From positions 1 to 42,033 of the forward strand of contig JAITTK010000105.1 in assembly GCA_031287135.1 (NCBI GenBank): a DNA stretch of 42,033 nt, written 5' to 3'. This document shows positions 12,952-38,253 of the stretch, one piece after another (position 1 is the stretch's first letter; every line of letters starts with the position of its first letter). Both the position numbers and the translations under genes were made by a program. The DNA is from Candidatus Methanoplasma reticulitermitis (GTDB taxonomy: Archaea > Thermoplasmatota > Thermoplasmata > Methanomassiliicoccales > Methanomethylophilaceae). The notes under the pieces were generated by a model that was not told the DNA's origin, made no database searches, and saw only the letters and a list, made by a program, of their open reading frames with translations.

Positions 12952-15900
12952 ATGAAATTAGATTCAGATAGAGGCGGACGCGCATCCGCATTGGTTGTGG
13001 TCATAGTCGTACTGATGATGTTGGCGGTCCCATTCACCGTGATGTCTTTGGGGGAAGGACGGCAGACGGAGGCTTCGGACACTTATGACGTAGGTTATTA
13101 TTCGGACGGCATACTGTTCAACACTGTCAGTTATGGTTCGGAAGAGGATCCCGAGGTGAAGTTCGATCCGATACCGCAGAAAGATGACAGCGTTTTCCTG
13201 GGATGGAGCACCGACAGTGCCGCGACCGGGGCAGATTACACGGTGTATGGCAGCAGGTCTTTCGATCCATCAAACGCGGACAGGCTGTATGCGGTATGGG
13301 GTCAGATAGGCATCGATGCAATGTTCGAGATGAGCGTTACGGATCTGGTCATCACATATTCCAACGGCATTTATTCTGTTAACGGTTCACAATTAAGCGG
13401 CAATTACATCAAGATAACGGGAGCATCGGCTACCGTTGAGAACAGCGGAAGGATAATTGTGCAGAGCACGGCAGCCGCAGGGTCTGCTGATCAGCTGTAC
13501 ATCCTGATGGACGGTCTGGGGCTGACGCGCCCCAATAATGCGGGCGGGGTGATCGACATAACTCCGGGCTGTTCGGTCAATCTGCAGTATTCCGGTAAAA
13601 ACGAGTTCAAACTGAATGTCGGCGGCAATGCGGCAGCGACCGTCACGGCCGTGATCCGTGTTTCCGGCGATACGACATTCGTGCTGCAGGGACAGGGCAA
13701 AACATCGGGAGACAACGGCCCCGGTCTGCACATCGATGTGAGGGCAACCCGCGGTCATACGGCAGTGTCCGGAATAGGGGGCAACGGTACCATCTCCGGA
13801 ACAGCGGAGAACGGAGGAAACATCCAGATCGAGTCCGGAAATCTTGAGATAGACCTTTACTGCAGTTCCTATTCATGCATGACGGGTATAGGCGGCGGAG
13901 GCAGCGGTGATAGCGGCAGCGTCTCAGGCAGCGGCGGGAACATAACGATCAACGGCGGCAGTACCAGGATAAGTACGAGCGGAACTTACACCGAAAGCAC
14001 GGCAATAGGCGGAGGGGCGACCTCGCGCGGGATTCCCGGGAGCAGCGGGAATATAAGCATCAACGGCGGCAAGATATCGATCATCCAGGAATCCAGAACA
14101 GTCATGTTAAGCGGTTCCGGTATCGGAGGGGGAGGAGGATACAACCAAGGGGCCGGCGGGATTGTTGATTCCATCGTCATAAAGAACTCGGATATATCGA
14201 TAATACAGAATGGTGACGATATCGTGACAGGTGCGGGCATAGGCGGAGGAGGGTCATACAGCGCCTCTTCGCCGGGCATCATGGGGCCGATAACGATATC
14301 CGATTCGAATATAGTCATAAAACAGATCGCGCAATCGTATATGGTGGGCGCGGGCATAGGCGGAGGAGGAATATACAGCAGATCCAGCGGTTCCGCGGGT
14401 TCCGCGCAAGTGGTTATCGAGAATTCATCGGTGGAGATCGATCAGCTGTCGGAGTACGTGTGCGGTGCGGGTATAGGCGGAGGAGGGTCATACAGCGGAC
14501 GCGGCGGATCGGCGGAGGTATCCATATCCGATTCAGAGATATGCATCAATCAAGTGGGTTATCTGGCATCCGCGGGCATAGGCGGAGGAGGGGTCAGATC
14601 GGGATCGGCCGACGCAGGAAACGGTACAGTGACCATAACCGGAGGTATCGTCGAGATCAACAGAGAGACGGACACGGGACGCTGGGGGTTCGGTGCGGGT
14701 ATAGGCGGAGGCGGACAGGGCATAAGCGGCAAAGCCGGGTCCGGCACAGTGACCATGAATGATGCAACGGTGCATGTTACCAATAAGCATGGTAACAACG
14801 GAGGGACCTACGGACTGTACGGCGCGGGCATAGGCGGAGGAGGAACTTGGAACACACAAGGTGCCGGGGAAGGCACGGTGGTCATAAACGGCGGAGACGT
14901 CAGGGTATCCGCTACCTCGGGGAACGCGAAGCTCCGCGGTGCGGGCATAGGCGGAGGAGGTTCGAACACGTCCACGGGTGCATATGGTGACGTGACCGTG
15001 ACGTCGGGTTCTGTGACAGTGACGATGTCGTCCCCCAACGGGATGAGCGGTGCGGGCATAGGGGGAGGTTCCAACCAGAACAACGCTCCGACAGGGGATT
15101 ACATGCAGACCAAGGTTTCAATCAACGGAGGGACGGTCACGGTGAACAGACTCGAAGGTACTCTGTACGGCCAGGACATAGGAACCGGCGGGACCCTGGA
15201 CAACAACAGCAACATCATATCCGCGACGGTGAACGGGGGGTCCATAAAAGTCACGGGAGGGGAAGGAGGTAACAACCTGTATCTCGGACCATCGTATCCC
15301 GGTTCCCGTCCCAAAAACACACCCGTCAGTTCAACCGGTCCGTCCGAATACGTCAACAAGACGGTGGTCGGTCTGGCACCCGGAGACGTTGTCATATCGG
15401 TCCTCGTCAGGGCGGACGGAGTCAATAATCTCATCGGCGGAAGGAACTACGATCTCGGATACAGGTATCACGACTTCGGCATAAACGCGAAACACGAAGC
15501 CGACAACGATCTGTATGTCTACCTTCCGTCCAATACCGCAAACCACAATGACGTATCCGTCGAGGTATCGGATGCCGGAGAGGTGAAATGGTTCAGATCC
15601 GACTCCTCGGATGCAAGAACCAACAATGCGGCGAGAATGGACGCGACGAACACATACTATCGGGTTAACTACAGTCTGGGGAACGGACTGATAAACCGCG
15701 AAGATATAGTCCACGTGAAATCCGGCCAGGCGGACGCGCTGATCGAGACGCTGTTCGTCTACGACACATACTCTTACGGCGGTTATGTCGCACCTCAGAA
15801 CATCTCCCTCGGGATGTACGACGGTTCGGGATATGTCGGACAAAGCGATTATGAGTACAGCACCCAGTGGACGGGCGAGGGGACCTCGGCCGACAGGGAA

Positions 15901-18900
15901 GGGGACCTGACATTCCCGCTCGAGAACACGGTATCCATAACCGGGAAGTTACTGATATCCGCGGAAGGGAAACAGAAAAGGACGGTATCATACATCGATG
16001 AGAGAGGTATCGTGCCCACCGGAAACATAACCGCGGCGATCGACGACAAGATATACGTGGGCGACGGGTCCGGCTTCGACGATACGGACTTCGAGATCGG
16101 CGGCTGGCTGTTAAACGGTTCGGCTGATAACACATACGATCCCGGGGATGAGTACACGGTGGTGGGCAACACCTCATTCGTCGCGGTCTGGAATCAGAAA
16201 GTCTGGAATATCAAATACGAGTTCGATCCTTTCGCGGTATCGCTCGACGACGGATTCAACGGCGACCCTCCCGATAAGGTGCTGTCCGGAGAGGTATGCT
16301 ATTTCGTCATCAACCTGGATGTGCTTCATGATCTGGAAAATACACATGTGGCCGTCAGTGGAGTGAGTGCGGCACCGATGTTGACCGCGGACGCGACGAA
16401 CCCTCAGAGGATCCACGTGTACATATACGGTGTGTCATCGGACATATAGGTCTTCATATCCGTGGATCCGATAGAATTCACCATAATCCTGCCCGTTGAT
16501 GTGACCGGTCAATACGAGATAAATCTCCAGGAAAGGGTGCATATTGTGGAGAGCGGCGGCAGTCTGGTATTCGAGATAAATTCGATCGGGCCCGTCAGTA
16601 ATCTCAGCGTGAAGATTTCACGCAACGGAGGTCCGCTGGATGATGTGCGGTTGAAGCCAGACGGTGACTATAAGGCGACGTGTTCTCTTATCAACATCAC
16701 ATACAATGCCAGGATCGTCATATTCTTGGATCAGGTGACCCTGAGACTGCCGGAATCCGGCAACAATGCCGGATTCGTCACATATCCGTCAGGATTGAAG
16801 ACGATGGCTGCAGGATCGGATTTCCAATTCTGGATAATGGTTAACGAGAACTACGACCCTTCCACCCTCATCGTGAAATTCATCAACGACTACGTAGTGT
16901 CCTCGGAAACACTGCCGAATCCGGTCCCGGACCAACACGGCGTCTATGGCTACAGTGTAACGGTGCAGGACCATTCTTCGGTGGAGGTCGAAGTTCAGAA
17001 AATGAAGCACCGGTTCAAAGTCCAGGGCGGCATGGGATACAAGCTCTACAGCCCTCTCGATCCAACCTCGGAGGTCAATGAGATAGATCAGGTATACGAT
17101 CGCGGGACGATCCCGGCCTTTTTCATAAAAGTCGAGGACGGTTATGACATAAACGAATTCAATGTGCATACCACACCGTCGACGGCGAACAACGGGACCG
17201 TGACCCGCGGATCGAACAACCAGTACGGCTGGTACTACTATGTATCCGATTTCAGTGGCGATGTGGAGGTCACGATAGAGGCCGGCAAGCTGAGGCATAC
17301 GGTCGTGGTTCTGTCGGGGGACGGGTTCTCCACGGACCCGCTTCCGGGAGTGTACAGATACGAGGCGGATTCCAGGATCGATGTGACCGTCCATGCCCTC
17401 ATGGGCTATGACATAAACTCCGATGAGGTCTCGGTGAGATTGATATGGAGCGGCGGGGAGATAGACTTCGAAAGGGGAACGCAAACCGCGAACACCTTCA
17501 GTCTGGATGGGATAAACGGATCAGGGACCATATCGATATATGTCCCGAAGATGACCTATTCGATATCATATTCCCCCAACGGGGGCCGGGGAACGCTTCC
17601 GGACACGGCCATCGTGGAGTATCAGGGGTCGTACACCGTATCGTCCGCAGCGAGTCTCGTCAAATCGGGATACACGTTCGGCGGCTGGGCATCTTCGCAC
17701 GATGCATCATCCGCAGACATGAGCAATGTCCGTCTGGACAACATAAGCAGAAACTACATCCTGTATGCATACTGGGTACCGATCAAGATAACCATTACAT
17801 ACAATGTGAACGGCGGGACCGGCGAAGCACCCGTATCGACAGTTGTCGGCGTCGACTATTCCGACAGTACCAGTTTCGTTGCGGCCATGAGGCCGGCGGG
17901 GATGGTGTTCGGAGACTCGTCATTCAGCAACTGGAACACCAGTCCGTACGGTTCCGGGGAGATGTACGTGCCCGGCAGCACGTACAGTCTGCCGACAACC
18001 GAATACACGACGCTCTACGCCTGGTGGACGAACTTTGTCATATTCACGGGCAATGCGGAAGGCGCGTCGATCGTGCCGCCGATAATCGGTACCGTGGGCG
18101 ACAATGCGTTCAAATTCCCCGAGGGACCGACGCATCCGAAAGGATTCACATTCGTCGGTTGGTATGACCCCTCCGTTCCGAATGTGCTGTACGGGGCGGG
18201 CGATATACTCGAGATACCGAGTCAGAGCATCGCATACTATGCGGAGTGGAGATGGGTGGACGTGAACACCGACAACGTGGATGAGGGGATCTTCGATTTC
18301 GTCGGAGATGTCCAGATCCCGGAGAACGGATCGTATGATTTCGAACTCACCGTCAAAGACGGACACACGGGAACGTATGATGTCATGGTGACCAATGACG
18401 TCCTCGATTGGGGAAATCCCCTGATCCCCGTCACGATAACGGGTAACACGGCGAGTTTCTCCGTGGCTGACTCGGGCACCGGCACCCTGTATATCAAGAC
18501 CGAGTTCAAAACGACCGAAGTTACCGTGACGTTCGACCCCGGAAACGGGGTGGAAACCATAAACGGCAATTCATCCGGTTCCATATCCGTGGATTTCAAC
18601 GGTGATTTGCCGTTGACGTACGCATACGCCCCGGGATATGACGGCGCACCGGTCGAGCTCATATACTCGACCGACAACGGCATCAGCTGGACGGTCCTGA
18701 CGGGGAACACTATAAACAACATAACGGTCCCTCTGACAGTATCCTCGACCGACATATACACGGTTTCCGTCAGACAGACTATCGGCACAACGATCACGGG
18801 GGACGGTTTCGTGCTGAAAGGGTATGATTATGAATTCACCGTCACGGTCCAGGAAGGAAGACTCGCGACCGCAGGCTTCGGATACACTCCGCAGTCCTCG

Positions 18901-21351
18901 ACGGCTTTGTCCGCCGAGCCGGGGACTGCGGATAGGTTCGTCGTGAATGACGTCGGGGCAGGCAACTCGACCGGCGGATACACGCTGTATGTCGAATCGG
19001 GCATGATCGAAACATATGCCGTGGATTATTCGGGGGTCATATCCCTGGACCCGCTGTTCTTCATGGGAGCGGACTTCGTCAATTCCGGAAGCGATTACAC
19101 CTTCGTCGTCGGTCTGAAAACAGAGTACGAGGGCCTCGGAAGCACTTTCGCGGTCAAATACAGAATCGGCGTTTCGGGAACGGAAACCCCCGTGAACACT
19201 CCCGAGTACACAATAGAGGCGTCCCTGATCCACGATACGATCTATATCTGGGTCGAAGAGAACGATCTCTATCTGCCGGTTATCCTGGCAACCCCCGGCA
19301 ACGGAGTGGATGCCATTGCCGTCGATGCGATGGACGATGGCAGCGGAGGGTACAAAATAGCGTACGGGTCGACACTGACGATAACCGTCTCGATGTCGTC
19401 CGGATACGACGGGGCACCCGTCAGGGTGTCTTACAGGTACGACGGAGGGCCGGAGCAGTTCGTCAGAATGTCCGGGCAGTCCGTTGCTCTGGCCGGCATC
19501 CATGCGGGGATAACCATCTCGACCGTGGATATCTACAAAGCGGACAAGACGACGCATGTATCGCCGAGTGTGACGCTCAGCGGAGCGGACTTCGTCATCG
19601 CCGGGGACACTTACACGGTGAACGCGACATCAGGCCTTTCTGGCGTGAACCCGATTGTCGTATACGGGTTCAACGAAACCGATTGGATCCCGATGGTATT
19701 CGCCAACAACCAATATATGACGGAGGCAGTGTCCGGCACCGGATACACCCTGTTCATAAAAGCGGACCCGGGAGTAACGTATGCCATAGATACGACCGGC
19801 ATGGATGAGTATGAGGCACTCGTATTCTCCGGGAACAGCTACGTACCGGCCGGTTCCGATTACACGTTCACCGTTGTCCTGAATTCCCCCGGTTACACGG
19901 GGATGTTCGTGACGGAGTACTCTGCGGACGGAAAGATGACGTGGATCGAACTGATCCTGGACGGATCCGACAGCGGTGTCGTCACCGCGGCACAGATAGG
20001 GACGCCGGCAGACGGTACGCTGTACCTGAGGGCGGTCAACCACTCGTCGGACCCGCTGATGGTGCCGGTGACCCTGACACTCGGCAACGGTGTATCGGCG
20101 GTCAATGGATCGTACACCGTGCTGATGGTGCAGCACGGCACCTTGAATTATCAACTGACGGCGGAGATGTCTCCCGGATACACCGGGGCATCGGTCGTGT
20201 ATTCGTACACGGCGGACGGGGCGACGCACCCCGTCACCGGCGGCGGGATACCGTCCGTCGTCACTGCGATGACCCTCTACACGGTACCCATCTACAAGGT
20301 GTCCTACAGCTCTGTACGCGGCACTTCCCCATCGGCGGAATTCGTTATCGAGGGAGGATCGGTGACCACGGCGGCGATGTCCGATATCGGCACTCACCGT
20401 TTCTATGGTTGGAGCATAGACAGTTCCGCCCAGTATATCTCGTACGGAGCAGGGATAACGTATCCCGTGAGCGAGATGGCCCCGGGTTCATACGAGATAA
20501 CGCTCTATGCATTCTGGATCGATTCCTCCGGGACAGAGATATATTTGATCTATGTGTCGAACGGAGGGAGCGACAGCATACCGAGAGTGGGATACAGCGC
20601 GGGAGAATATGCTACTGTGACCTCGATAATACCGACAAGGTCCGGATACATCTTCACCGGATGGCTGGGCGAGGACAACAGAAGATACGCGGCGGGCAGC
20701 AGTATACTCATGAACGACACATTCGTGCTTATCGCCCAATGGTCCGAGGAGATCGTCAATCAGACGTTCACCATAACGTCCGCAGCCGATCCGGGTGCCG
20801 TGATATCGCCGGCGGGAAATGTCACGGTCGGCATATTCGGAAGCGTGACTTTCGAATTCTCGGCCAAGGAAGGATATTCACTGTCCGATATCATAATCGA
20901 CGGGGTGAGCTATCCGCAGTTCGCGTCCCTGGGACACTATACGTTCGAGAATGTGATCGGGGATCACACGATAGAGGTAAAGAACGTAAAAACGACGATC
21001 GTCCTGGACATAAGCATCGACGGAAACGGCAGGGTCGAATACAGTGTGAACGGCGGCGGTTTCGAGGAGTATTCGGAACCCGTCACAATGGCCGCGGACG
21101 TGAATGTGACACTGAGGGCATATGCAGGCAATGGACACCACTTCGTAAACTGGTCAGGCACGGCATCGGGCAGCGACTCCGAGATACAGATACTGAATGT
21201 GCGCGACTCGATACAGATGAATGCGGCATTCGAGGAGAACGGTCTCCTGTCCGGTATTTCAGGCATGTTCATGTGGTTGCTGTTGTTATTGCTGATTCTG
21301 CTGGTGATCGCAATGATCCTGATATACTCACGGGACCGTTCGACGCAGTGA
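12952..21351 (+). CDS. giant surface/adhesin-like protein interrupted by a single in-frame TAG (16447-16449)
   Basis: ORFs 12952-16449 and 16462-21351 share one frame. Signal peptide at the N-terminus, GAGIGGGG beta-helix-like repeats, InlB-type repeats, C-terminal TM (MFMWLLLLLLILLVIAMILIYSRDR). Reads through in frame except for TAG. Confidence 0.75.
13880..15075 (+). repeat. tandem GAGIGGGG-containing repeat array
   Basis: GCGGGCATAGGCGGAGGAGG-like sequence recurs about every 105-130 nt (near 14232, 14350, 14467, 14572, 14693, 14823, 14940, 15051). Confidence 0.9.
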
Positions 21352-21653: not shown

Positions 21654-22940
21654 TCAGCCCGTCAGGATCAGAACGCCCGCGGCGATGAGCAGGGTGATCG
21701 ATGCGACCGGGATACCGATGAGCGCGAACTTCCAGAAATCGAACGATATGCCGTCGGCCGCCGAGCGCTCGGTCACTATAACATTCGCCGCCGAACCTAT
21801 GAGCGTCGCGTTGCCCGCAAGGGTCGAGGAAGCGGCCAGGGCTAACCAAAGCGCCATATCGCCAGCAGGCAGCATATCCGCTATCATGACGGTTGCCGGC
21901 ACATTGCTCACAAGGTTGGACAGTATGGCGGAGAATATCGTCACACCGACCACCGACGGTGTCTCCCCCTCCCCGAAGCCCGGAAAGAGCGAAGCGATCT
22001 GATCCAGCAATCCCGATCCGGACACGCCCCCTATGAGGACGAAGAGACCGATGAAGAACACCAGTACGCCCCAGTCGATCTTCTTGGCCACCCAGACGAT
22101 GTTCCCGGGTGATTTCGACATCACGACGGCAAGTGCCGCTGTGCCGGCCGTCATCGCGATGACGTAAGTCTCGATGCCGATCATGTCCGAAACGGCGAAT
22201 CCGATCAATGCACCGAGGGTTATCGTCACGGTTGCCCGGAGTCTGATTCTATCGACACCGGGGTCGGGATACTCCTGTCCGACACAGGGTCCGGATGTCA
22301 GGTTCTTCCTGAATATAATGCAGATCAGCAGGAACGCGACGGGAAGACACAGGATGGACACTGGGATAGTGTGCATCGCGAAATCAGCGAAGGGGATCCC
22401 GGCCTCCGATGCGATATACGCATTCTGCGGGTTCCCTATCGGGGTGATGAGACTGCCTATGTTTGCCGAGAACATGACTCCGATGAGATACGGTATCGGA
22501 TTCGCATTCGTACTCCTGCAGCACTTTATGACTATCGGGGTGAAGATAAGGACTATCGCGTCATTCAGGGCTATGGCGGAAAGGACCGCACAGACGATCA
22601 TGACATATGCGAGCAATCTCACCTTGTTGCCGGAGTGTCTTACGAGTATGCCGGACACGATCCCGAAGAACCCTGAGAACTCGAGGCCGATCACGAGCAT
22701 CATCATGCCCAGCAAGAGGAGTATCACGTCATGGTTTATGAGACCGGGAACATCGCCTGGGGAGACTATTCCGAAGAGGACCATCAGCGTACCGCCCGCC
22801 GCGGCGGCCGCCCCCCTACCCGCCCTGATCCCGGGAAGGTTCCTGAAAGAGATGAGGGCGTATGTGAAGACGAAGATCGCGGCCGCCACAAGAACAGTGT
22901 TCAGAACCATGCGCCCCGTAACCGCACGGAATCTCGGCAT
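21654..22940 (-). CDS. ArsB/NhaD-superfamily (SLC13-like) anion or arsenite permease
   Basis: 428 aa, ~11-12 hydrophobic helices, NPQNAYIASEAGIPF and LAGNATLIGSAANVIV motifs; divergent from the ArsR-ArsM gene. Confidence 0.8.
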   Translation of the reverse strand: MPRFRAVTGRMVLNTVLVAAAIFVFTYALISFRNLPGIRAGRGAAAAAGGTLMVLFGIVSPGDVPGLINHDVILLLLGMMMLVIGLEFSGFFGIVSGILVRHSGNKVRLLAYVMIVCAVLSAIALNDAIVLIFTPIVIKCCRSTNANPIPYLIGVMFSANIGSLITPIGNPQNAYIASEAGIPFADFAMHTIPVSILCLPVAFLLICIIFRKNLTSGPCVGQEYPDPGVDRIRLRATVTITLGALIGFAVSDMIGIETYVIAMTAGTAALAVVMSKSPGNIVWVAKKIDWGVLVFFIGLFVLIGGVSGSGLLDQIASLFPGFGEGETPSVVGVTIFSAILSNLVSNVPATVMIADMLPAGDMALWLALAASSTLAGNATLIGSAANVIVTERSAADGISFDFWKFALIGIPVASITLLIAAGVLILTG

Positions 22941-23072
22941 TGATTAATTTTTCCGTCGAGCCCGTATGGCGCATCCATCAATGCCATGTATGTCCGGATC
23001 GGGACAGAGATATGCTTTGCGGCTTTGTTATAAATACATAAATGATCATCTATATGTTACACGGTGTGCGGA

Positions 23073-24527
23073 ATGGATGAGACGAGGGTGTTCAGGGCGC
23101 TCGGCGACGGGAACAGGGCAAAGATAGTCAGCATGCTGACCGAGGGGGAGATGTGTGCATGTGAGATCCTGCTCCGTTTCGGTTTCACGCAACCGAACCT
23201 AGCCTATCATATGAAGACACTTTGCGACAGCGGTCTGGTCAGGGGCAGAAAGGAAGGCAGATGGATGTATTATTCGCTGTGCCCGGATGTCATCGACGGG
23301 ATCGGGAAGATGATGAACGCGCTGAGCGGCGGAAAGGGAGGGATCCATACGGACGACGGAAGAAGGGATAGGATACGGGAAGACTACGCATCGATAGCCA
23401 GGAAAGGCGGCGCATCATGTCTTTGCGCAACGAATGCATACGGGCGCGAGGATCTGGAGTTCATCCCCGCCGAGGTGATCGGAAGGAATCAGGGATGTTC
23501 CTCGCCTCTCGCGGATGCGAAAAGATATCTGCGGCGGGGGGACACGATAGCGGACCTCGGATGCGGGGCAGGGCTGGATGTCTTCATCGCCTCCAGGTAC
23601 GTGGGGCCGGAAGGAAAGGCGATAGGCATAGACATGACACCGGAGATGCTGGAGGTCGCAGACAGGGCGAAGGGGGAAGTATCATCCGTGCTGGGATACG
23701 ATAACACGGAGTTCTTCCGGTCATTCATCGAGAAGCTCCCTCTGGAGGATTCATCGGTCGATGTGGTCATATCGAACTGCGTCATCAACCTCTCATCCGA
23801 CAAAGGGGCCGTATTCTCCGAGATATTCAGGGTGCTCAGGCCGGATGGGAGATTCATAATATCAGATGTGTTCTCCCTCGACCCTCTTCCGGAGTACATG
23901 AAGAACGACAGGGATCTCATAAGCCGATGTTTCGGTGGAGCGATGCTGATCCCGGACCTGTACCGTATCGCGGGAGAGGCCGGATTCACGGGGATACATC
24001 CGGTCCATACGGACAGCTATTCCCGCATCGACGGGATGGATTTCATCTCTGCGACGTATTGCGGCAGCAAACCGCATCCTCCCGGCGATGACGCCGGGCG
24101 TTTCACGGCGGTACTGATCGGGCCGCCGTCGAAGGTCGCGATCGAGACGGGGGACGTGTTCGTGAGAGATGTGCCAGCCGAGGTGGAGGCGTCCGTAGCC
24201 GAAATGCTTCGCGGGGATGCGTACAGCCGGTATTTCAGCATATATCGGGACGGTGTCCCCGAGAAGACGGAGGGTGTCAAGGTGCTGCCTGTGCCTGGCC
24301 CCTGTGTGTTCACCGGAAAATTCGCGGTCCCCGTCGGACCGTTTCCGGTGTTCGAGGATGATGACCGACATGTATACAGACTCGGGAAAGCGCTGGAGAT
24401 ATGCAACAAGACCGAGAAGGTTCTCAGCGATCCGTTGTATGGCGGACTGGTGATGATCACAGACCGTTCGGCCGGAAGGGCCGTGGACGCCGCAGAGACT
24501 TGCTGCGGTCCAGAGTGCAAATGCTGA
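23073..24527 (+). CDS. arsM: ArsR-type repressor fused to arsenite S-adenosylmethionine methyltransferase (ArsM)
   Basis: N-terminal ArsR HTH with GEMCACEILLRFGFTQPNLAYHMKTL; then ADLGCGAGLDVF SAM motif, VVISNCVINLSSDK of ArsM; Cys-rich tail CCGPECKC. Confidence 0.88.
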   Translation: MDETRVFRALGDGNRAKIVSMLTEGEMCACEILLRFGFTQPNLAYHMKTLCDSGLVRGRKEGRWMYYSLCPDVIDGIGKMMNALSGGKGGIHTDDGRRDRIREDYASIARKGGASCLCATNAYGREDLEFIPAEVIGRNQGCSSPLADAKRYLRRGDTIADLGCGAGLDVFIASRYVGPEGKAIGIDMTPEMLEVADRAKGEVSSVLGYDNTEFFRSFIEKLPLEDSSVDVVISNCVINLSSDKGAVFSEIFRVLRPDGRFIISDVFSLDPLPEYMKNDRDLISRCFGGAMLIPDLYRIAGEAGFTGIHPVHTDSYSRIDGMDFISATYCGSKPHPPGDDAGRFTAVLIGPPSKVAIETGDVFVRDVPAEVEASVAEMLRGDAYSRYFSIYRDGVPEKTEGVKVLPVPGPCVFTGKFAVPVGPFPVFEDDDRHVYRLGKALEICNKTEKVLSDPLYGGLVMITDRSAGRAVDAAETCCGPECKC

Positions 24528-24845: not shown

Positions 24846-25433
24846 ATGAGGCTGAAGATCGATTGATGGCATCGTATCTCTTGCCGATTTATTGGATGCA
24901 AGGGGAGAGTCGTCCGTTCTGAATTTTCTGGATACTTTCAGGTGTTCCCGTGATATGGAGTTGGAGATATTTCTCCGTCAGAAAGCAGTATTTTACGAGA
25001 AGCGCGACAGATCCCGTACTTTCCTGAAAGTAGTCGATGGCAAGATAGTTGCGTATTTCTCTCTGGCATTGACCGTCATCACGGAAGGTAAGATCACATC
25101 TAAAATATCAAATGGTCTCAGGAGAAGAATGGATTTCCATGGCGATTCGATAAATTCATTCCTCCTTGGCCAATTCAGCAAAGCCGATGGCGTGAAGCCG
25201 GGAATAGGCCCGGATCTCATGGCAGATGCGCTCAGTCTCTTCAAGGATGCGAAAGCCATCGTCGGATACAGGGTGTCGCGGTAGACTGCAAGATGGAATT
25301 GAAAGGATTCTATGAACAGTTTGGATTCAAGGCCATAAGCGACATGGATTCCGGAACGGAATTATGCCGCATGGTTCTGATATTCCCGGATAAGAAAAAG
25401 TTAGTGTCCCAATATACACCGCAGACACCATAG
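24846..25433 (+). pseudogene. GNAT-like N-acetyltransferase with two frameshifts
   Basis: Three frames join as MRLKI(D)//DGIVSLADLLDARGESSVLNFLDTF...AIVGYRV//VAVDCKMELKGFYEQFGFKAISD..., ending at TAG 25431-25433. Confidence 0.7.
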
Positions 25434-29091: not shown

Positions 29092-32000
29092 TCACTGCAC
29101 CCTGATCATCAGGGTGTCTGTGACATCATCTCCCGGAATCTCGTATACATCATCTTTCCGAACAGGCTCCTTCCACACCGTGTTGTCGCCCGTGCGGTAT
29201 GCGAGGGTTCCCTCTCCTTCCACGGAGAACATGTAAGGGCGGTTGGCCCGTGCCTTTTTCTTTCCGATGATGGTCGCGTTGTCGCTGTCTATCTTGACCA
29301 CGTCTACCATACCTCTGGAGAGCGAGGCCAGAAGTATCATGAGCAGTCCGATCAGCAGAATGGACAGCACGGCTATCATCAGGATTATGAACATGAGCGA
29401 TCCGAAGAAGTCGTCACTGCCGGGATTGACCGGAGCCGCCTTGAATACAAGGGTCTCGGTCACACTGCCTGTCACATCCATTATGGATACTCTGTCATCT
29501 GTGCCGTACACGCTGCCTTCCCATCTCTCGACGGCGTACCCGTCCGTCGGTACCGCCAGCAGGACTATGTCCGCCATCGGGGTCAGCTCCACGCGTCCGT
29601 TGTATCTCGTGAACGTCTGTCCGCCGTCCTGGCTGTACATAACATGTCCTTCGCCTCCGACGACGGTGACGTCGAGGTATATGCCGGTTTCGGCCGCGGT
29701 CACGACCATCGCATGGTTGGACATGACACTCAAGAAAGTGTAGCTGCCTGCCGCCACCAGGTCAGGGCGGCTGATTCCGTCTATCACCACGCCGACCACC
29801 TCGTATCCCGGTTCTGCGGTCCATGACACGGTGTGATTGCTTCCGGCAGGCACGGGCCTTGACCCGCTCGGGTCCACGGACACTCCCGGCCCGGCAGTCG
29901 CCGTGACGACATACCCGCTGGACGGGGGCGGCGAGAATTTGACCTCTATCATATGGTCCGCGTCAACGTTGAAGAACACGTAGTTATCCATAGGCCCGAT
30001 AGACACGTTGTCGACGATCACATCGATCACGTGGGAACCCGTACCCGGGGTGATCACGAACGTCTGATCATGGTGTTTCTCGATGAAGACCGACCCTGCC
30101 GGGGATACCCATCCGTTCCCGGAGATGATCGTCGTTATGGTGTATCCATCGACATGGAACTCCGCCGTGACGAAGCTCGGAACCGTGCCTACATCGAAGG
30201 TCTCGGGGTTGTTCATTCCAGTTACCGCGCCCGTCCATCCCACGAAGTCTCCCTGCGTATTCACCGCAAAGATCGTAAGATGGTATCCGTTCGGCACGGT
30301 CAGCTGGCTGGAGGGGAAGTTGTGCCACACCCCTTCATGATCGAACTGTATGTATCCGGTTCCGTTCCCGATGGTCGACGCGGTCACCGAAGTGACGCTG
30401 CCGTTCAGATAGAACCATGCTGTGATGCTCTTCTTCCCGTCGATCAGGAGGTTCTGTTGCGCAACTATGTCCGAAAGATCACCGGTCCACCATACGAAAG
30501 AACTGCCCGATGCAGCCAACGCCCTGACCATGAGATCGCCGTTCGGCACATTCACCGCCGAATACGGCAGATCATGCCAGACGCCGTCCCTCTGCACGGA
30601 GACGGTTCCGTCGCCGTCGCCATCCATGTCGACATCCAGCGTCGATATCTTCGAATTATCGAAGAACCAGGCTTTGATGCTCTTGTTCCCGTTTACGTTC
30701 AGGCTCTCGCTGGCGTTGAGTGTCGTGAGGTCCCCGGTCCACCATATGAAGGTGCTGCCGGATCCGGACGTCGCGACTATGTCATACACGACTTTGGGGA
30801 GCCTTGTCACAGTTCCGTAGCTGAATTCCATGAGCGTTCCGCCAAACTCGTATTCCACCTTGCCATTCCCTTCCCTCGTTACGGTGACGTTCGCGAAATC
30901 CGAGCTGGAATAGAACCAGACTATGGCATCCTCGCCACCGTCGATCGCAAGGTCCTTCGGGTTATCGGTGCCTGTGAGGTCACCGGTCCATGCGAAGAAC
31001 GTTCCGGACGATGCCGCAGCCCGGAATGTAAGATTGCCCTTGGGCACATTCACCGCACCGTACGGGAGGACGTGCCAAGCCCCGTCCCTCTGCACGGAGA
31101 CGGTCCCGTCCCCGGTCCCGTCCTTCTGCACAGTGAGCTGAGCTATGTCGCCGTCGGCGAAGAACCAGGCTTTGATGCTCTTGTTCCCGTTTACGTTCAG
31201 GCTCTCATTGGCATTTAGTGTTGTGAGGTCCCCGGTCCACCATATGAATGAGTTGCCGGATGATGCCGTGGCGGTTATGCTGAGATTGCCTCTCGGTATC
31301 TCCGTAGCAGTCCCGTAGACGAACTCGTACGTCGAACCGTCGAATACATACTCGACCTTGCCGTTTCCGTCCCTTTCGACCGTGATGAATACCAGATCGC
31401 CCCCGTTGTAGAACCAGGCTTTGACTGTTTTGTCACTGTCGATGGTCACCGTCTCGCCTGCGTTAAACGAGGTGAGGTCCCCCGTCCACCTGTAGAACAC
31501 ACCCGTGACGGCAACGGCCCGGATGTTCAGGACGTGGTTCTCCGGAATCCACTTCCCGCCGGACGGAACGTCGTACCAGACCCCACCGTACTGATACTGG
31601 GCCTTTCCTGACCCGGTTCCTCCGTACTCGGCGTTTAACATGTATGCCGTGTCGGGCGATCCCCCCGGACCGTCGTTGAACTCGAACACGGCGGATGCGG
31701 TGACGTTGTGGTTCACGGTTATCGTCGCTGTTGCCGACACGGCACTGCTGAACGATACGAGGTCCCCCGATGTCCCCGCCCACCAGATGAACAGGTAGCC
31801 TGCGGTGCCGTTGGAGGTCTTGACCTCCACCTGCTGGCCCGCGGGTACGGTCATACCGCCGGCCGGGAACACAGTCCAGACATTGCCGCTGTTCCAGTCC
31901 ATGTACTCCACCGTCCCTCCGTTCGTGGCGGAGAGGTTAAGGGTGTATGTGCTGCTCTGGGTGAATTCTGCATTCACTGTTTTGTCAGTATCGACCGTTA

Positions 32001-35000
32001 GTGTCTCGGGATTGGTCTGTCCGGAAAGGGCCCCGGTCCAGCGAATGAATTCACCAGTTGTGGCCACTGCCGTCAGCGACAGTACACATCCGTTAGGGAC
32101 CGTTATCGGTCCAGCCGGGAAATCCTGCCAGACCGAGTTCTGATAGAACTGTACCTTGCCTGAGCCGTTGCCGGACGCGGTCGTCGTCACGGCATATGTG
32201 CTATCAGAGAACAGAGCTGCGACCGTTTTATCGTCGTCCGCCGTCAGAGATTGAGGATTGACATGGCCGCTGAGGTCCCCGGACCACCAGATGAACACAT
32301 TGCCTACCGGGAGTACGGACGGTATCGCTTCCAGCGACATGACCGAGTTCGTGGCGATGTTCACGGGCGTTCCGGGGTATAGGAAGGTGGTGCCGTTCAC
32401 GGTTATGTCAACGGTACCGCTGCCTGTGACGGAAACCGTGAGGGTCTTTCCCCTGTCGGATCCGGTGTAGTTGGCCGAGACGGTCTTGTCGGAATCCACC
32501 GTCAAGGCCGGGGCCGGGTTGGCCGCGCTCGAGATGCCGCCGGACCAGTATGAGAATCTGGCTCCCGTCGGGGATGCCGAAGACTCCAGGATGACGGACG
32601 TACCCGTGGCAATATATATCGGATTCAGATAATCGAATGTTATCGCACCCACCGTCAGAGTGACGGAGCCTCCGTTATCGTTCACCGTCAGGATTTTCCC
32701 GTGACCCAGGTCCGTGAACACGGCCTTCTCCGTGTGATCCCGCCCGAAACTGCCGATCGTCAGCGGATTGGCCGAGCTGTTCACGGTTCCTTCCCAATAC
32801 GAGAAGTTGGAGCCCGCTTTGCTAGCGGTCAGCACGACCTGCGACCCGTTCGGGACATTGACAGGCAGGGTTCCGTAATCGAATGCGGGTATCGTCCCCA
32901 CTCCGACGTTGACGTTCCCGCCGTTCTTGTCCACGGTCAGTATGCGCACGTCCGCCGTGGCGTGGAACCAGGCCGTGATCGACTTGTCCGAATAGACGCC
33001 CAGGGTGTGCTGGGGCCCGTTGCCGATAAGGTCGCCGGACCATGCCACGAACGAACTGCCGGGATCAGGGACCGCCTTCACATCCAGGTCCGAATCTCTC
33101 TGTACGGTCAGCGTCCCGCCTGAAGGGAATGCCTGCCAGATGCTGTTCTGGTAGAACTGGACCGTACCGCTGCCCGACACCGCCGAGGTGACCGTGTATG
33201 TTCCGGATGCGGTGAACTCCGCGTCCACCGTCTTGTCGGATATGATGTTTGCAAGCGTCTCCGGGTTGGTCTGACCGGAGAGACTGCCGGTCCACCAGAT
33301 GAATGCGTCCGACGGCGATTTCGGAACGGCTATGAACTCCACGTCCTTTCCGGCCGCTATCGGTATTACCGCTCTGTTGGACGAGGGGGCGCCCGTGCGG
33401 AAGACTGCTCCGTCTATCAGTACGTCTATGTCCCCCGATCCGTCGCCGAGCGTCCCGAGACTGAGGTACACCGCCCCGCTGAGCGGGACGAACCATGCGT
33501 TGACCGTGTAGTCCGGAGATATGCCAGTATGAACTGTCACGCCTTCTTTGTCCAGGCCGGATGCCGCTCCGGTCCATCTCGAGAAGACGTATGAACCCGG
33601 TGCGGCGACGAGCCGTACGGTGGCCGAGTCGCCGGCCGCCGTGACTATATCGGCGGCCATGCCGGCGAAGGGTCTCCCGTTTATCTTATATTCATAGGAA
33701 GCGCCGGGGACCGTGCCGCCGGTGGAGTCATCGTAGGACTTCACGTAGACGGTGACCGAGTTCGCGGTCAAGACGAACACCGCGGTCAGATCATGCGATT
33801 CCGAAGGGAGCGAACCGATCCATGCCGCGGTGCTGTTCCCGTTCACCAGTCCCATCCACGTGGAGAAACTGTGTGTGGAGGGGATCCCGCTGTGGACCTC
33901 CATGCTGACCGAGGTCCCGGAGGGGAGGATGAGCATGCCCGTCGCATAACCCACCTCGCTTCCGATGGTATACTTGAACACCGCACCGGGGATCCCGCTG
34001 TAATTGGTCCCGTCCCATTCGTCCGTCTGAAGGTTGACGACGGTCTCCGCGTTGTGCGGAACGAATATCGCTTTGATATGCACCGTTTGTGACAGGACGC
34101 TAACGTTCAGAGTGATGGTCCCGCTGTTGGTGTTCCCGATGTTCTGATCGTCGGTCACCCATCTGGAGAATGAATAGCCTCCGGAAGGAAGGGTTGTTAT
34201 GGTTATGTTCCTGTTCGGCGGCATTGCGTCGGATTCTCCGTGGGCAACCCTGTATGTGTTCCCGTCATAGCTGTATTGTATCACCTCTCCGAGCATCGGT
34301 TTTTCGGACCCGCCTTCGATATATACAGCGTCGAATTCCACCGTGAGCCACTGGCTGCTGCTGTAATAGTATGCGGTGAGGACCGGAGCCGTATTGACCC
34401 CTATCGGCATGACCACGGTATCCGTTGTGGGACCGCCCAGTATCTCGGATCCATTCCAATGGTCGAAAATGAAGCCGCTGGGGGAATCGCAATGCGTGAA
34501 CCCTACGTCATATGTCGTCGACGATCGCGGGAGGTGGAGCGTGGAATTCATGGAAGTCCACGCTTTCCCTTCGCCCGGGATCTCATAGTATATGTTCGAA
34601 GGCACGTGCACGCCGGGAGATGTCGCCATCCTTGCGCTCAGGGCAAGGGAGACGTAATCCCCGTTGGCAAGGAAATGCGCCACGGACTCTTTGTCAGTGT
34701 CCATGACCGTGCCTGTCACGGTAGGCTCGCCTGACCCGGTGACCCCGGGCCCTTTCAGGTCATAATCCGTGGTCCATCTGGAAAAGACATAACCGCTCTC
34801 CGCGTTCGCGGTGTAATCCACGTACGTCGTCGGATCCGTCCATATGATGCCGGTGCCGCTGACGAGGGATACGGGGCCGTACCCGCTGTACGTGCTGCCT
34901 CCGTCGGTGCTCACGCGGAACTCGAAGGTTCCGGCGGCAGCCGGGTCCGAAACGATGGTCAGGCCCACACCCGCACCCGTCGTGAAGACAGCTTTGACAT

Positions 35001-38000
35001 AGGTGTTATCCAACGTAGCGTTGAACCCGAGCGGGTTGAACGTGCTGACGGTGTCCCCGTCCCAGTCCCCCTGCCAATACGAGAATTTATTGTTTGTCCC
35101 CGTCGCCGCCGCGGTAAGTGCCAGAGTTGTGTTCTTATCGAAAAGCAGCACTTGGTCGGAAGAGAACTCGGGACTGATGTTCACCCTTTCCGAGGCGGAA
35201 TAGACGGCCGACACGGCGGTCTTCCCGGCCCCGGCGAACGACAGATGCAGCCTCACGGCGTCGCTGGAGACGTATGCTTTGTATTCGGTGTTATGATTCA
35301 GCACTATGTCCGTGATTGTATCTGAGATGTAGCCTCTGGTTCCGTCGGACCAATGCAGGAACTGATATCCCGAGGTCGCGGTTATCTTCACCCCGACCTT
35401 CTTCCCCAGGTCCACCATGACCCTTCCCCCGTAGTCCGTCCACGGTCCGTTCTCGATATTGTACTGCAGATCTCCTCCGCCGGAGTCATTGATGTCCAGC
35501 TCCAGAACGGCGCCCCACAGGGCCGTCAGCGTCTCTGACGTCTCCCTCAGAACCAACGGGTCCTCCAGGAAATACCTCTTTCCTTGCGAGTCCTGCCATC
35601 CTATAAGCTGATAATCCTGGAATACCGTGCTCCACCCCCATGAGGCGGTGGGCTCGTTCAGATTGACTAGGTATCCTATACCTGCATGCAGCGTCTTCAC
35701 GGAGTTGTTGTGGCCGGACACCGGGTCGTGGAAACTCAAGGTGGCGGTCTCGGACGACCCGACGGCGATCACGAGCTTACCCGTCACAGGCGCCGTCATG
35801 GAGAACGGCGAGGTGCGGCGTGTACTGTCCCAGTCGGGGTTGTCAGGGTCGTAGGCCGGGACCAGTGCATATGTGTACGGCTTGTTCTCGGACAGCGGAT
35901 ACCATGTGTCCGTAGTGCCGTTGCTCTTGTACATGTACAGATATCTCAAGGTGCCCTGCAGGGTGTGCGAGGAGTCACTCGTGAATTCCTGCGAGAAGAA
36001 GGAGGCCGAATCGCTGTAGTGCACTATGTCGTGCGTGCGGTCAATCCCCTGTGCGAGTTTGTAGATGATACGGTAGTACCTGCTGTATCCTCCGCTGACC
36101 GTGGTCCCGTTCGGGATCGCTGGGTCGTTGCCTCTGACCGCGGTTACAGTACCGCTGTTGCCGGACGATGTGTAATAATTCACGAATCCCGTCTTTCCGT
36201 CAGTTTCGACCGATATCCCGTTCGGATCTGACGCCTGGGCCGCCGGAAGATACAGGTAGAGCTTGGTATCCTTCGCTGCCGCGCCGAGTTTGTGAGAGGA
36301 TGTTATGCCGAAATCCGAATAATACGGGGAACCGTTCTTCAGCCAGCCAGAGGCGGCGGCCCTCTTCACGAACACCGAGGCCGAATCGCCGGTATCGGGC
36401 ACCGTGGTCTTGTACAGTGCGTTGCCCTTGGAGTCCTTGGGTGACGACAGGGTTCCTCCGTCACTTCCGGTGAGCCTTATCGATCCTCCGTCCACGGTTG
36501 CGGAGTTGGTAATGTTTCCGCCTCCGCCTATGTCCTGGCCGGCGGACCCGGCCCTGTTGACCGTCACGGTACCGCCTGTTACTGTCACGGTACCGGCCGC
36601 GCCTTTGTTGCTGTTCGCCGAATGTCCGTACCCGCCTCCGCCTATACCGGCGCCGGTGAACTGATCGCCAGAGCGAGCGGTCATGTCGACGTATACGTTG
36701 CCGCCCGAGATCGTGACTTGGCCTGTGTTCGGATTCGAACTGCCGCTCTCGCCGGATCCGCCTCCGCCTATACCGGCACCGCTGCTCTTTCCGTTGTTGG
36801 TGTTGCTATGCTTCTTGGAGACCGAGACGTCACCGCCGGTTATGGTCACAACTCCTTCGCCTGCAGTCCCGTTACCTTCGATACCGCCTCCGCCTATACC
36901 CGCACCGTATATGCCCAGAAGGTATCCCCGGCTGATATCGCCCATCTGTATCTTCACGGTCCCGCCGTTTATCGCGACGTTCCCGTCCCCGCCGTTACTG
37001 CCATTGTATGATCCTCCTCCGCCGATCCCGCTGGCGGGCGTTCTGTCCGTGGTTATGACCGAGATATCGACAATCCCGCCGTCGATCGTTACGTTGCCTT
37101 TCCCCCCCCTACCATCCCACGAACCGCCGCCGCCCATACCGGACCCGGTAATCTCCTCGTTATCTGCGGTGTTTGAAGAGAGGTTGATGTTTATGTTCCC
37201 GCCTTTGATGAAGACATTCCCATCCCCGGCGGTCCCGTTCCTGCTCGCCCCGCCGCCTATCCCCGAGGAATTCACATACTGCCCGGCAATCGTTATTGTC
37301 GTCGTCCCTCCGTACATGTATACTCCTTTGGCATCCCCGGCGTAGCCGAAGGTCGACCCGCCTCCGCCTATCCCGGAATAACATGTGCCGCCGCCGACCG
37401 AACTTCTCATACTGATCGTCAGTACTCCGGACTCGACCTGTATGTTTCCCGCATCAAGGCCGTTATTCTTGCCCGGTGCTCCACCGTCGTTTCCATTCCC
37501 GCCGATCCCGGCACCTCCGGAATGGTCAGCCGTGGAGGTTTTCTGAATCGTCAGAGCAGAATTTCCCTGCCCCTGAAGTATGAGGGACGCTCCCCCGGAC
37601 ACATGGATAACAGCATTGTGATTGGAGTTTTCAATGAAATCGTTGCTACCGGCATACTGCATAACGACATTGCCGTTCCTTATATCGAAAACCGACCCGT
37701 TCGACGAATTGTTCGCACGGAGGTCCTGAACGAGGACATGCACCTTTCCGGAACCAACATCGATCTGAATCCTGTTGTTGTTCCCTCCGCCCTCTATTAA
37801 AATGTACTTTCCGGCGTCTCCGCTTCCGATGCTTGTCGTTGAAATGGAGCTTTGGTTACTCAGAGTTATTTTTCTATCATACTGCTTCCAGCATGCATAC
37901 AGCGTCAGGGACGCCGAGTCAACGGTCAGAGTCCTGCTGTCCCAATTGCCGATCTCGGATTCAAAATCCGGGGTATTTCCAGAAGTTAACGACCAGCCGG

Positions 38001-38253
38001 TGAAGAAATAGCCGGCGCGCTGAGGTATGTTCTCGAACTGAACCGTATATTCCTCATGCAGCCCGCGACTGTAGGACGGCTGGGCTCCCGGCCATGTTCC
38101 GCCGTTTGCATCGTAGATTATGTTTCCACTCGGTTCGGCGGAGGAATATTCTCCGCCGAAGTTGATCGCAGTAAATGGAACCGCTATCATAAGCAATATA
38201 GCTATAGCTACAAATGCTGATTTGCGCCCATCGTCCTCTAATCTAATATTCAT
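29092..38253 (-). CDS. giant (3053 aa) repeat-rich surface/adhesin-like protein
   Basis: Signal-anchor N-terminus, GAGIGGGG repeats, about 20 WxG InlB-like modules (e.g. WWTGDLTTLNASESLNVNGNKSIKAWF), C-terminal TM helix and ~75-aa tail. Confidence 0.92.
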   Translation of the reverse strand: MNIRLEDDGRKSAFVAIAILLMIAVPFTAINFGGEYSSAEPSGNIIYDANGGTWPGAQPSYSRGLHEEYTVQFENIPQRAGYFFTGWSLTSGNTPDFESEIGNWDSRTLTVDSASLTLYACWKQYDRKITLSNQSSISTTSIGSGDAGKYILIEGGGNNNRIQIDVGSGKVHVLVQDLRANNSSNGSVFDIRNGNVVMQYAGSNDFIENSNHNAVIHVSGGASLILQGQGNSALTIQKTSTADHSGGAGIGGNGNDGGAPGKNNGLDAGNIQVESGVLTISMRSSVGGGTCYSGIGGGGSTFGYAGDAKGVYMYGGTTTITIAGQYVNSSGIGGGASRNGTAGDGNVFIKGGNININLSSNTADNEEITGSGMGGGGSWDGRGGKGNVTIDGGIVDISVITTDRTPASGIGGGGSYNGSNGGDGNVAINGGTVKIQMGDISRGYLLGIYGAGIGGGGIEGNGTAGEGVVTITGGDVSVSKKHSNTNNGKSSGAGIGGGGSGESGSSNPNTGQVTISGGNVYVDMTARSGDQFTGAGIGGGGYGHSANSNKGAAGTVTVTGGTVTVNRAGSAGQDIGGGGNITNSATVDGGSIRLTGSDGGTLSSPKDSKGNALYKTTVPDTGDSASVFVKRAAASGWLKNGSPYYSDFGITSSHKLGAAAKDTKLYLYLPAAQASDPNGISVETDGKTGFVNYYTSSGNSGTVTAVRGNDPAIPNGTTVSGGYSRYYRIIYKLAQGIDRTHDIVHYSDSASFFSQEFTSDSSHTLQGTLRYLYMYKSNGTTDTWYPLSENKPYTYALVPAYDPDNPDWDSTRRTSPFSMTAPVTGKLVIAVGSSETATLSFHDPVSGHNNSVKTLHAGIGYLVNLNEPTASWGWSTVFQDYQLIGWQDSQGKRYFLEDPLVLRETSETLTALWGAVLELDINDSGGGDLQYNIENGPWTDYGGRVMVDLGKKVGVKITATSGYQFLHWSDGTRGYISDTITDIVLNHNTEYKAYVSSDAVRLHLSFAGAGKTAVSAVYSASERVNISPEFSSDQVLLFDKNTTLALTAAATGTNNKFSYWQGDWDGDTVSTFNPLGFNATLDNTYVKAVFTTGAGVGLTIVSDPAAAGTFEFRVSTDGGSTYSGYGPVSLVSGTGIIWTDPTTYVDYTANAESGYVFSRWTTDYDLKGPGVTGSGEPTVTGTVMDTDKESVAHFLANGDYVSLALSARMATSPGVHVPSNIYYEIPGEGKAWTSMNSTLHLPRSSTTYDVGFTHCDSPSGFIFDHWNGSEILGGPTTDTVVMPIGVNTAPVLTAYYYSSSQWLTVEFDAVYIEGGSEKPMLGEVIQYSYDGNTYRVAHGESDAMPPNRNITITTLPSGGYSFSRWVTDDQNIGNTNSGTITLNVSVLSQTVHIKAIFVPHNAETVVNLQTDEWDGTNYSGIPGAVFKYTIGSEVGYATGMLILPSGTSVSMEVHSGIPSTHSFSTWMGLVNGNSTAAWIGSLPSESHDLTAVFVLTANSVTVYVKSYDDSTGGTVPGASYEYKINGRPFAGMAADIVTAAGDSATVRLVAAPGSYVFSRWTGAASGLDKEGVTVHTGISPDYTVNAWFVPLSGAVYLSLGTLGDGSGDIDVLIDGAVFRTGAPSSNRAVIPIAAGKDVEFIAVPKSPSDAFIWWTGSLSGQTNPETLANIISDKTVDAEFTASGTYTVTSAVSGSGTVQFYQNSIWQAFPSGGTLTVQRDSDLDVKAVPDPGSSFVAWSGDLIGNGPQHTLGVYSDKSITAWFHATADVRILTVDKNGGNVNVGVGTIPAFDYGTLPVNVPNGSQVVLTASKAGSNFSYWEGTVNSSANPLTIGSFGRDHTEKAVFTDLGHGKILTVNDNGGSVTLTVGAITFDYLNPIYIATGTSVILESSASPTGARFSYWSGGISSAANPAPALTVDSDKTVSANYTGSDRGKTLTVSVTGSGTVDITVNGTTFLYPGTPVNIATNSVMSLEAIPSVLPVGNVFIWWSGDLSGHVNPQSLTADDDKTVAALFSDSTYAVTTTASGNGSGKVQFYQNSVWQDFPAGPITVPNGCVLSLTAVATTGEFIRWTGALSGQTNPETLTVDTDKTVNAEFTQSSTYTLNLSATNGGTVEYMDWNSGNVWTVFPAGGMTVPAGQQVEVKTSNGTAGYLFIWWAGTSGDLVSFSSAVSATATITVNHNVTASAVFEFNDGPGGSPDTAYMLNAEYGGTGSGKAQYQYGGVWYDVPSGGKWIPENHVLNIRAVAVTGVFYRWTGDLTSFNAGETVTIDSDKTVKAWFYNGGDLVFITVERDGNGKVEYVFDGSTYEFVYGTATEIPRGNLSITATASSGNSFIWWTGDLTTLNANESLNVNGNKSIKAWFFADGDIAQLTVQKDGTGDGTVSVQRDGAWHVLPYGAVNVPKGNLTFRAAASSGTFFAWTGDLTGTDNPKDLAIDGGEDAIVWFYSSSDFANVTVTREGNGKVEYEFGGTLMEFSYGTVTRLPKVVYDIVATSGSGSTFIWWTGDLTTLNASESLNVNGNKSIKAWFFDNSKISTLDVDMDGDGDGTVSVQRDGVWHDLPYSAVNVPNGDLMVRALAASGSSFVWWTGDLSDIVAQQNLLIDGKKSITAWFYLNGSVTSVTASTIGNGTGYIQFDHEGVWHNFPSSQLTVPNGYHLTIFAVNTQGDFVGWTGAVTGMNNPETFDVGTVPSFVTAEFHVDGYTITTIISGNGWVSPAGSVFIEKHHDQTFVITPGTGSHVIDVIVDNVSIGPMDNYVFFNVDADHMIEVKFSPPPSSGYVVTATAGPGVSVDPSGSRPVPAGSNHTVSWTAEPGYEVVGVVIDGISRPDLVAAGSYTFLSVMSNHAMVVTAAETGIYLDVTVVGGEGHVMYSQDGGQTFTRYNGRVELTPMADIVLLAVPTDGYAVERWEGSVYGTDDRVSIMDVTGSVTETLVFKAAPVNPGSDDFFGSLMFIILMIAVLSILLIGLLMILLASLSRGMVDVVKIDSDNATIIGKKKARANRPYMFSVEGEGTLAYRTGDNTVWKEPVRKDDVYEIPGDDVTDTLMIRVQ
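30560..31560 (-). repeat. 498-nt higher-order tandem duplication within the giant gene
   Basis: The CCGTCCCTCTGCACGGAGACGG segment at 30584 recurs at 31082; the GAAGAACCAGGCTTTGATGCTCTTGTTCCCGTTTACGTTCAGGCTCTC segment recurs at the same spacing. Confidence 0.85.
36500..37540 (-). repeat. GAGIGGGG-type repeat array (reverse strand)
   Basis: CCTCCGCCTATACC(G/C)GC-like segments recur throughout; protein shows SGAGIGGGG, TGAGIGGGG, YGAGIGGGG. Confidence 0.9.

Follow-up and report, generated by a model that had tools for sequence, protein, structure and literature searches.

The window analyzed here is the whole 42,033-nucleotide contig (C77; JAITTK010000105.1) of Candidatus Methanoplasma reticulitermitis, taken from a metagenome-type assembly (GCA_031287135.1) of 1.22 Mb in 118 contigs that is 85% complete. 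A forward-strand frame at 12952-21351 was translated into 1165 residues, a TAG at 16447-16449 (codon 1166), a further 1633 sense codons, and a TGA at 21349-21351. In agreement with the initial annotation, this TAG was the sole stop inside the 2,799-codon frame. The first possible start after it is a GTG at 16462, 4 codons on, from which a product of 1629 amino acids would be made. The features of the locus are as follows, with the basis of each in brackets.

12952-21351, + strand: probable read-through gene for an adhesin-like surface protein, 2,799 codons plus TGA (translation, coding scores, hydropathy)
12952-14331, + strand: N-terminal domain common to about 13 adhesins of the genus (sequence matches)
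12970-13059, + strand: signal sequence region at the N terminus (residues 7-36), with homology to the N termini of sister adhesins (hydropathy, homology)
16201-16479, + strand: repeat module M0, residues 1084-1176, with the TAG in its last beta-strand (module model, AlphaFold)
16447-16449, + strand: in-frame TAG, codon 1166, putative pyrrolysine (translation and pyrrolysine context)
16480-17559, + strand: module copies M1-M4, residues 1177-1536 (module model)
17557-17769, + strand: best-matching stretch of the Listeria-Bacteroides repeat (PF09479), at residues 370-440 in the downstream half (profile match)
20761-21348, + strand: C-terminal region with InlB-like repeat and membrane anchor (profile, homology, hydropathy)
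29092-38253, - strand: 3,053-residue adhesin paralogue without TAG, with matching N- and C-terminal regions (sequence matches)

Only two membrane-type hydrophobic stretches were found by hydropathy in the 2,799 residues, at about 7-36 and about 2763-2797, which bears out the earlier claim that the signal lies only upstream of the TAG and the anchor only downstream. Both the signal sequence and the C-terminal membrane anchor were recognized by hydropathy only, together with homology to the ends of the family. The C-terminal region was present in all 17 of the 17 genus genomes, and the paralogue, located 8 kb away, matched the N-terminal half at 41-47% and the C-terminal region at 29%. In the downstream half, PF09479 scored 67.7 bits over the whole half (cut-off 27). 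The number of Listeria-Bacteroides repeat matches varied widely within the genus, with 142 in one genome (G011; 67% GC in the stretch sampled) versus 0-35 in the other 16.

Two neighboring loci were also noted. An ArsB/CitMHS-type transporter adjoins an ArsR-methyltransferase fusion at 21654-24527, which looks like an arsenic-handling pair. A GNAT-like acetyltransferase gene at 24892-25430 (+ strand) is split by a frameshift. The initial annotation had stated that the intact genes in the window end with TGA or TAA; one other open reading frame there, at 24892-25284, ends with a TAG, but this TAG is out of frame in the frameshift-split gene.

Continuity of the gene across the TAG

The coding score based on codon usage was 0.34 upstream of the TAG and 0.37 downstream (genome median, 0.37), and thus both sides were equally gene-like, while the remaining two forward frames downstream scored -0.61 and -0.56. 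The 20 codons flanking the TAG on each side scored 0.53 and 0.57, indicating that no non-coding gap separates the two halves.

The TAG is located in a repeat region. Residues 1177-1536 consist of four module copies (M1-M4) of about 90 residues each, and the TAG lies inside a fifth, more diverged copy, M0, directly before them. An earlier module hidden Markov model gave M0 just -1.9 bits, and this was resolved by building the model on seven other copies, of which the same protein supplied four and a protein of another genus (L009) three. With this model, the TAG-spanning copy scored 13.1 bits, and none of 2000 shuffled sequences scored as well. When M0 was split at the TAG, the part before it scored 2.9 bits and the part after it only 0.6. 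An iterated version of the module model drifted toward general InlB-type repeats.

The residues of the seven other copies in the alignment column of the TAG are R, S, E, T, I, T, and S, and an alternating hydrophobic strand pattern comes next. AlphaFold prediction on the module alignment (pLDDT, 84) placed the last strand at positions 82-90 of 95, and the TAG residue is number 83. Other copies of the module have sense residues at the place of the TAG in this last strand; both halves therefore belong to one gene, and a domain of its product is interrupted by the TAG.

Pyrrolysine machinery and stop codon usage

The initial annotation had proposed that pylT, pylS, and pylBCD be sought in the same genome, and all were found. 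The genes pylS (PylS_Cterm, 288 bits; cut-off, 178), pylB, pylC, and pylD all exceeded the NCBIfam cut-offs and lie on one contig (C15). A tRNA with a CUA anticodon is located just upstream of pylS; we take it to be tRNA-Pyl in the compact form known in this lineage, as judged by the M. alvus sequence. MtmB is encoded twice at full length on this contig, which also carries an MttB fragment; all three contain an in-frame TAG. Within the genus, PylS exceeded the cut-off in 15 of 17 genomes.

A depletion of TAG stops, another check that had been suggested, was found across the genome. In the 1.0 Mb counted (about 82% of the genome), 662 coding-like open reading frames ended with TGA (546), TAA (107), or TAG (9), and in the part in which stop-type trinucleotides were counted, TAG made up 16% of them. 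The nine TAG-ended frames were the two MtmB genes, the gene at 12952-21351, a CobN gene, the frameshifted acetyltransferase gene (out of frame), and four apparent real ends, three of them on one contig and the fourth with a TGA directly after. At most about 0.6-1.4% of genes end with TAG, and the use of UAG as a stop has almost been given up. At least 80 coding-like codons continued in frame after the stop in 4 of the 9 TAG-ended genes versus 36 of the 653 genes ended by TGA or TAA (Fisher P = 0.001).

A complete pyrrolysine code would have no TAG stops, and about 4 of 660 genes here end in TAG, although in-frame extensions beyond these could still be read. UAG decoding may therefore be partial, and termination at UAG may persist, as these few genes suggest. 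Since about 50% of the single-base nonsense changes in the genome would yield TAG, the all-TAG pattern of interruptions is modest evidence only, and its use as strong proof was dropped.

TAG codons in CobN and sister adhesins

In a CobN-like cobaltochelatase gene (L034, G000:C21, 4711-7290), a conserved domain is interrupted by an in-frame TAG, codon 771. The CobN family match continues through this codon and the frame is open to the contig end; the same column holds E, G, A, D, S, or F in relatives. Two CobN homologues in another genome (G010) also contain TAG; in one of them the TAG occupies another column, which holds R, M, K, E, or Q in others. The cell reads TAG in MtmB and, it appears, also in CobN.

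Among the roughly 13 adhesins that share the N-terminal domain, TAG was found in that domain twice in G016 and once in G001, which represent two sister species. The column of the G001 TAG holds CAA (Gln) in G016 and N, H, D, S, Q, or E in others, and that of the second G016 TAG holds D, S, A, T, N, or I in relatives. None of these TAGs lies beyond codon 100, and the frames, of 2,583 and about 3,990 codons, are otherwise open, with about 2,500 and about 3,900 codons left after them; termination there would thus remove almost the whole protein. The TAG positions of the other members of the adhesin family are all different and unconserved. Such scattered TAGs support what would be ordinary, position-independent pyrrolysine decoding. 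A further adhesin TAG, at codon 1031 in G015 (L172), was left out of the firm evidence, as the surrounding stretch is partly degenerate in appearance.

Searches of the genus, of the family (102 genomes), and of GTDB r220 yielded no orthologue covering codon 1166 itself. A search for a stimulatory or PYLIS-like RNA structure 3' of the TAG gave nothing beyond chance (z = 0.61; 146 of 200 shuffled sequences at least as stable).

Alternative explanations

A recent nonsense mutation could have truncated a formerly continuous gene, leaving a silent downstream half that has not yet decayed. Single-base nonsense changes in this genome yield TAG most often, the family has many paralogues and the loss of one might be tolerable, and no orthologue shows a TAG at the site of codon 1166. 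In addition, the frameshifted gene nearby indicates that local mutation or base errors do occur on this contig. However, the whole pyrrolysine machinery is present and TAG is read in MtmB and, apparently, in CobN. The 1,633 downstream codons are fully coding in character with no further stop or frameshift, and sister adhesins with a TAG near the start nonetheless stay open for thousands of codons; on balance, such a mutation is unlikely. A base-calling or assembly error at 16447-16449 also draws on the frameshifted gene and on the fragmented, incomplete assembly. Like the mutation, it keeps some probability since no orthologue covers the codon, but it is unlikely that a single substitution would happen to yield TAG, and separately assembled relatives also carry TAG; we regard an error as very improbable. 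Still less credence can be given to a pair of separate genes with GTG 16462 as the start of the second. This start lies close behind the TAG, but no clear ribosome-binding motif is found at the usual spacing 5' of it (ATATAGGTCTTCATATCC), the second product would have the C-terminal anchor with no signal, the stop falls inside a module, and the paralogue and the relatives are each encoded by one gene.

The initial annotation had also raised a switch dependent on pyrrolysine supply. In such a scheme, the methylamine level would set the ratio of a released 1,165-residue form to the anchored full-length form, both functional. The topology is compatible with this, with the signal only upstream and the anchor only downstream, and UAG decoding as pyrrolysine is expected to compete with termination. 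Nevertheless, the scheme was not borne out: TAG positions are unconserved across the adhesin family, the RNA after the TAG is not unusually structured, the short form would stop inside a module and lack its last beta-strand, and the paralogue at 29092-38253 has no TAG. No selection for a short form was suggested by any test run, and we consider the switch improbable. If it were true, methylamine availability would determine whether the adhesin is anchored or released, and the cell surface would report the substrate.

Probable decoding of the UAG as pyrrolysine

The best explanation, to which we assign a probability of about 0.78, is that 12952-21351 is one adhesin-like gene with a C-terminally anchored product and that its single UAG is a sense codon read as pyrrolysine. 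The earlier suggestion that the UAG may be translated is well supported by the pyl genes, the depletion of TAG stops, the other interrupted genes, the site within a domain, and the TAGs in sister adhesins. PylBCD would make pyrrolysine and PylS would charge tRNA-Pyl (CUA), which would compete with the release factor at the UAG and insert pyrrolysine as residue 1166. This position is variable and mostly polar and belongs to the last strand of an InlB-like module. Translation would then continue to the TGA at 21349, and the full-length protein would be Sec-exported and held in the membrane by its C-terminal anchor. We infer the insertion and its efficiency, as well as export and adhesion, from sequence features. 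Some termination at the UAG is likely and would give an unanchored fragment, which need not be functional. The UAG at codon 1166 is most likely a product of drift, the lineage having nearly vacated this codon as a stop, and would not be a control element. Decoded TAGs in the lineage appear to arise by drift in general, and the expectation in the initial annotation that a conserved TAG would support decoding appears ill-suited here.

Comparison with known systems

In the methyltransferases MtmB, MtbB, and MttB, UAG is read as pyrrolysine by the same machinery, and the MtmB and MttB genes of this genome carry UAG. In these enzymes pyrrolysine is a conserved catalytic residue, whereas position 1166 is variable and no role for pyrrolysine is apparent there. 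Kivenson and others (Science, 2025) reportedly described archaea that read all TAG codons as pyrrolysine. TAG is a sense codon across many genes in those archaea, as it seems to be here, but here a few genes are apparently TAG-ended. Unlike in those archaea, a Tubulin/FtsZ-like gene (L055, G000:C42, 14311-15156, - strand) appears to be TAG-ended at the same place in four species. This gene ends IPISYRSLLS-TAG and overlaps a convergent gene; the TAG is shared with G002, G007, and G010, G012 has TGA, and G001 has a Ser codon and a short run-on. The TAG is either a real stop or pyrrolysine followed by a short tail.

As reported previously for Methanomassiliicoccales ISO4-H5, 46 genes contain an amber codon, one of them for an adhesin-like protein (PMC5011839). 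That gene resembles 12952-21351, by description and not by sequence, in having an in-frame UAG in a pyrrolysine-encoding methanogen. Here the codon was placed structurally in the protein; the part of that report available to us has no such placement for the ISO4-H5 gene (PMC5011839). In the accessible part of Borrel 2014 (PMC4153887), M. alvus has 1.6% TAG stops and 16 further pyrrolysine candidates, and M. luminyensis has 11.3% and none; with TAG ending about 0.6-1.4% of genes, the present genome resembles M. alvus. In-frame TAG is described there in unrelated non-methyltransferase genes of Ca. M. alvus, half of which have TAG-free homologues. No giant adhesin like the one found here appears among the M. 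alvus candidates in that part of the text. Amber-containing genes in these archaea, including an adhesin-like one, were already known from M. alvus and ISO4-H5.

Biological implications

Standard gene calling fragments such adhesins, and consequently their size, anchoring, and number would be misread in gut-type methanogens. With the gene at 12952-21351, exported surface proteins would be added to the classes of proteins in which pyrrolysine may occur. In addition, the sister genes, with TAG at differing places, would offer a direct test of UAG as a nearly neutral sense codon.
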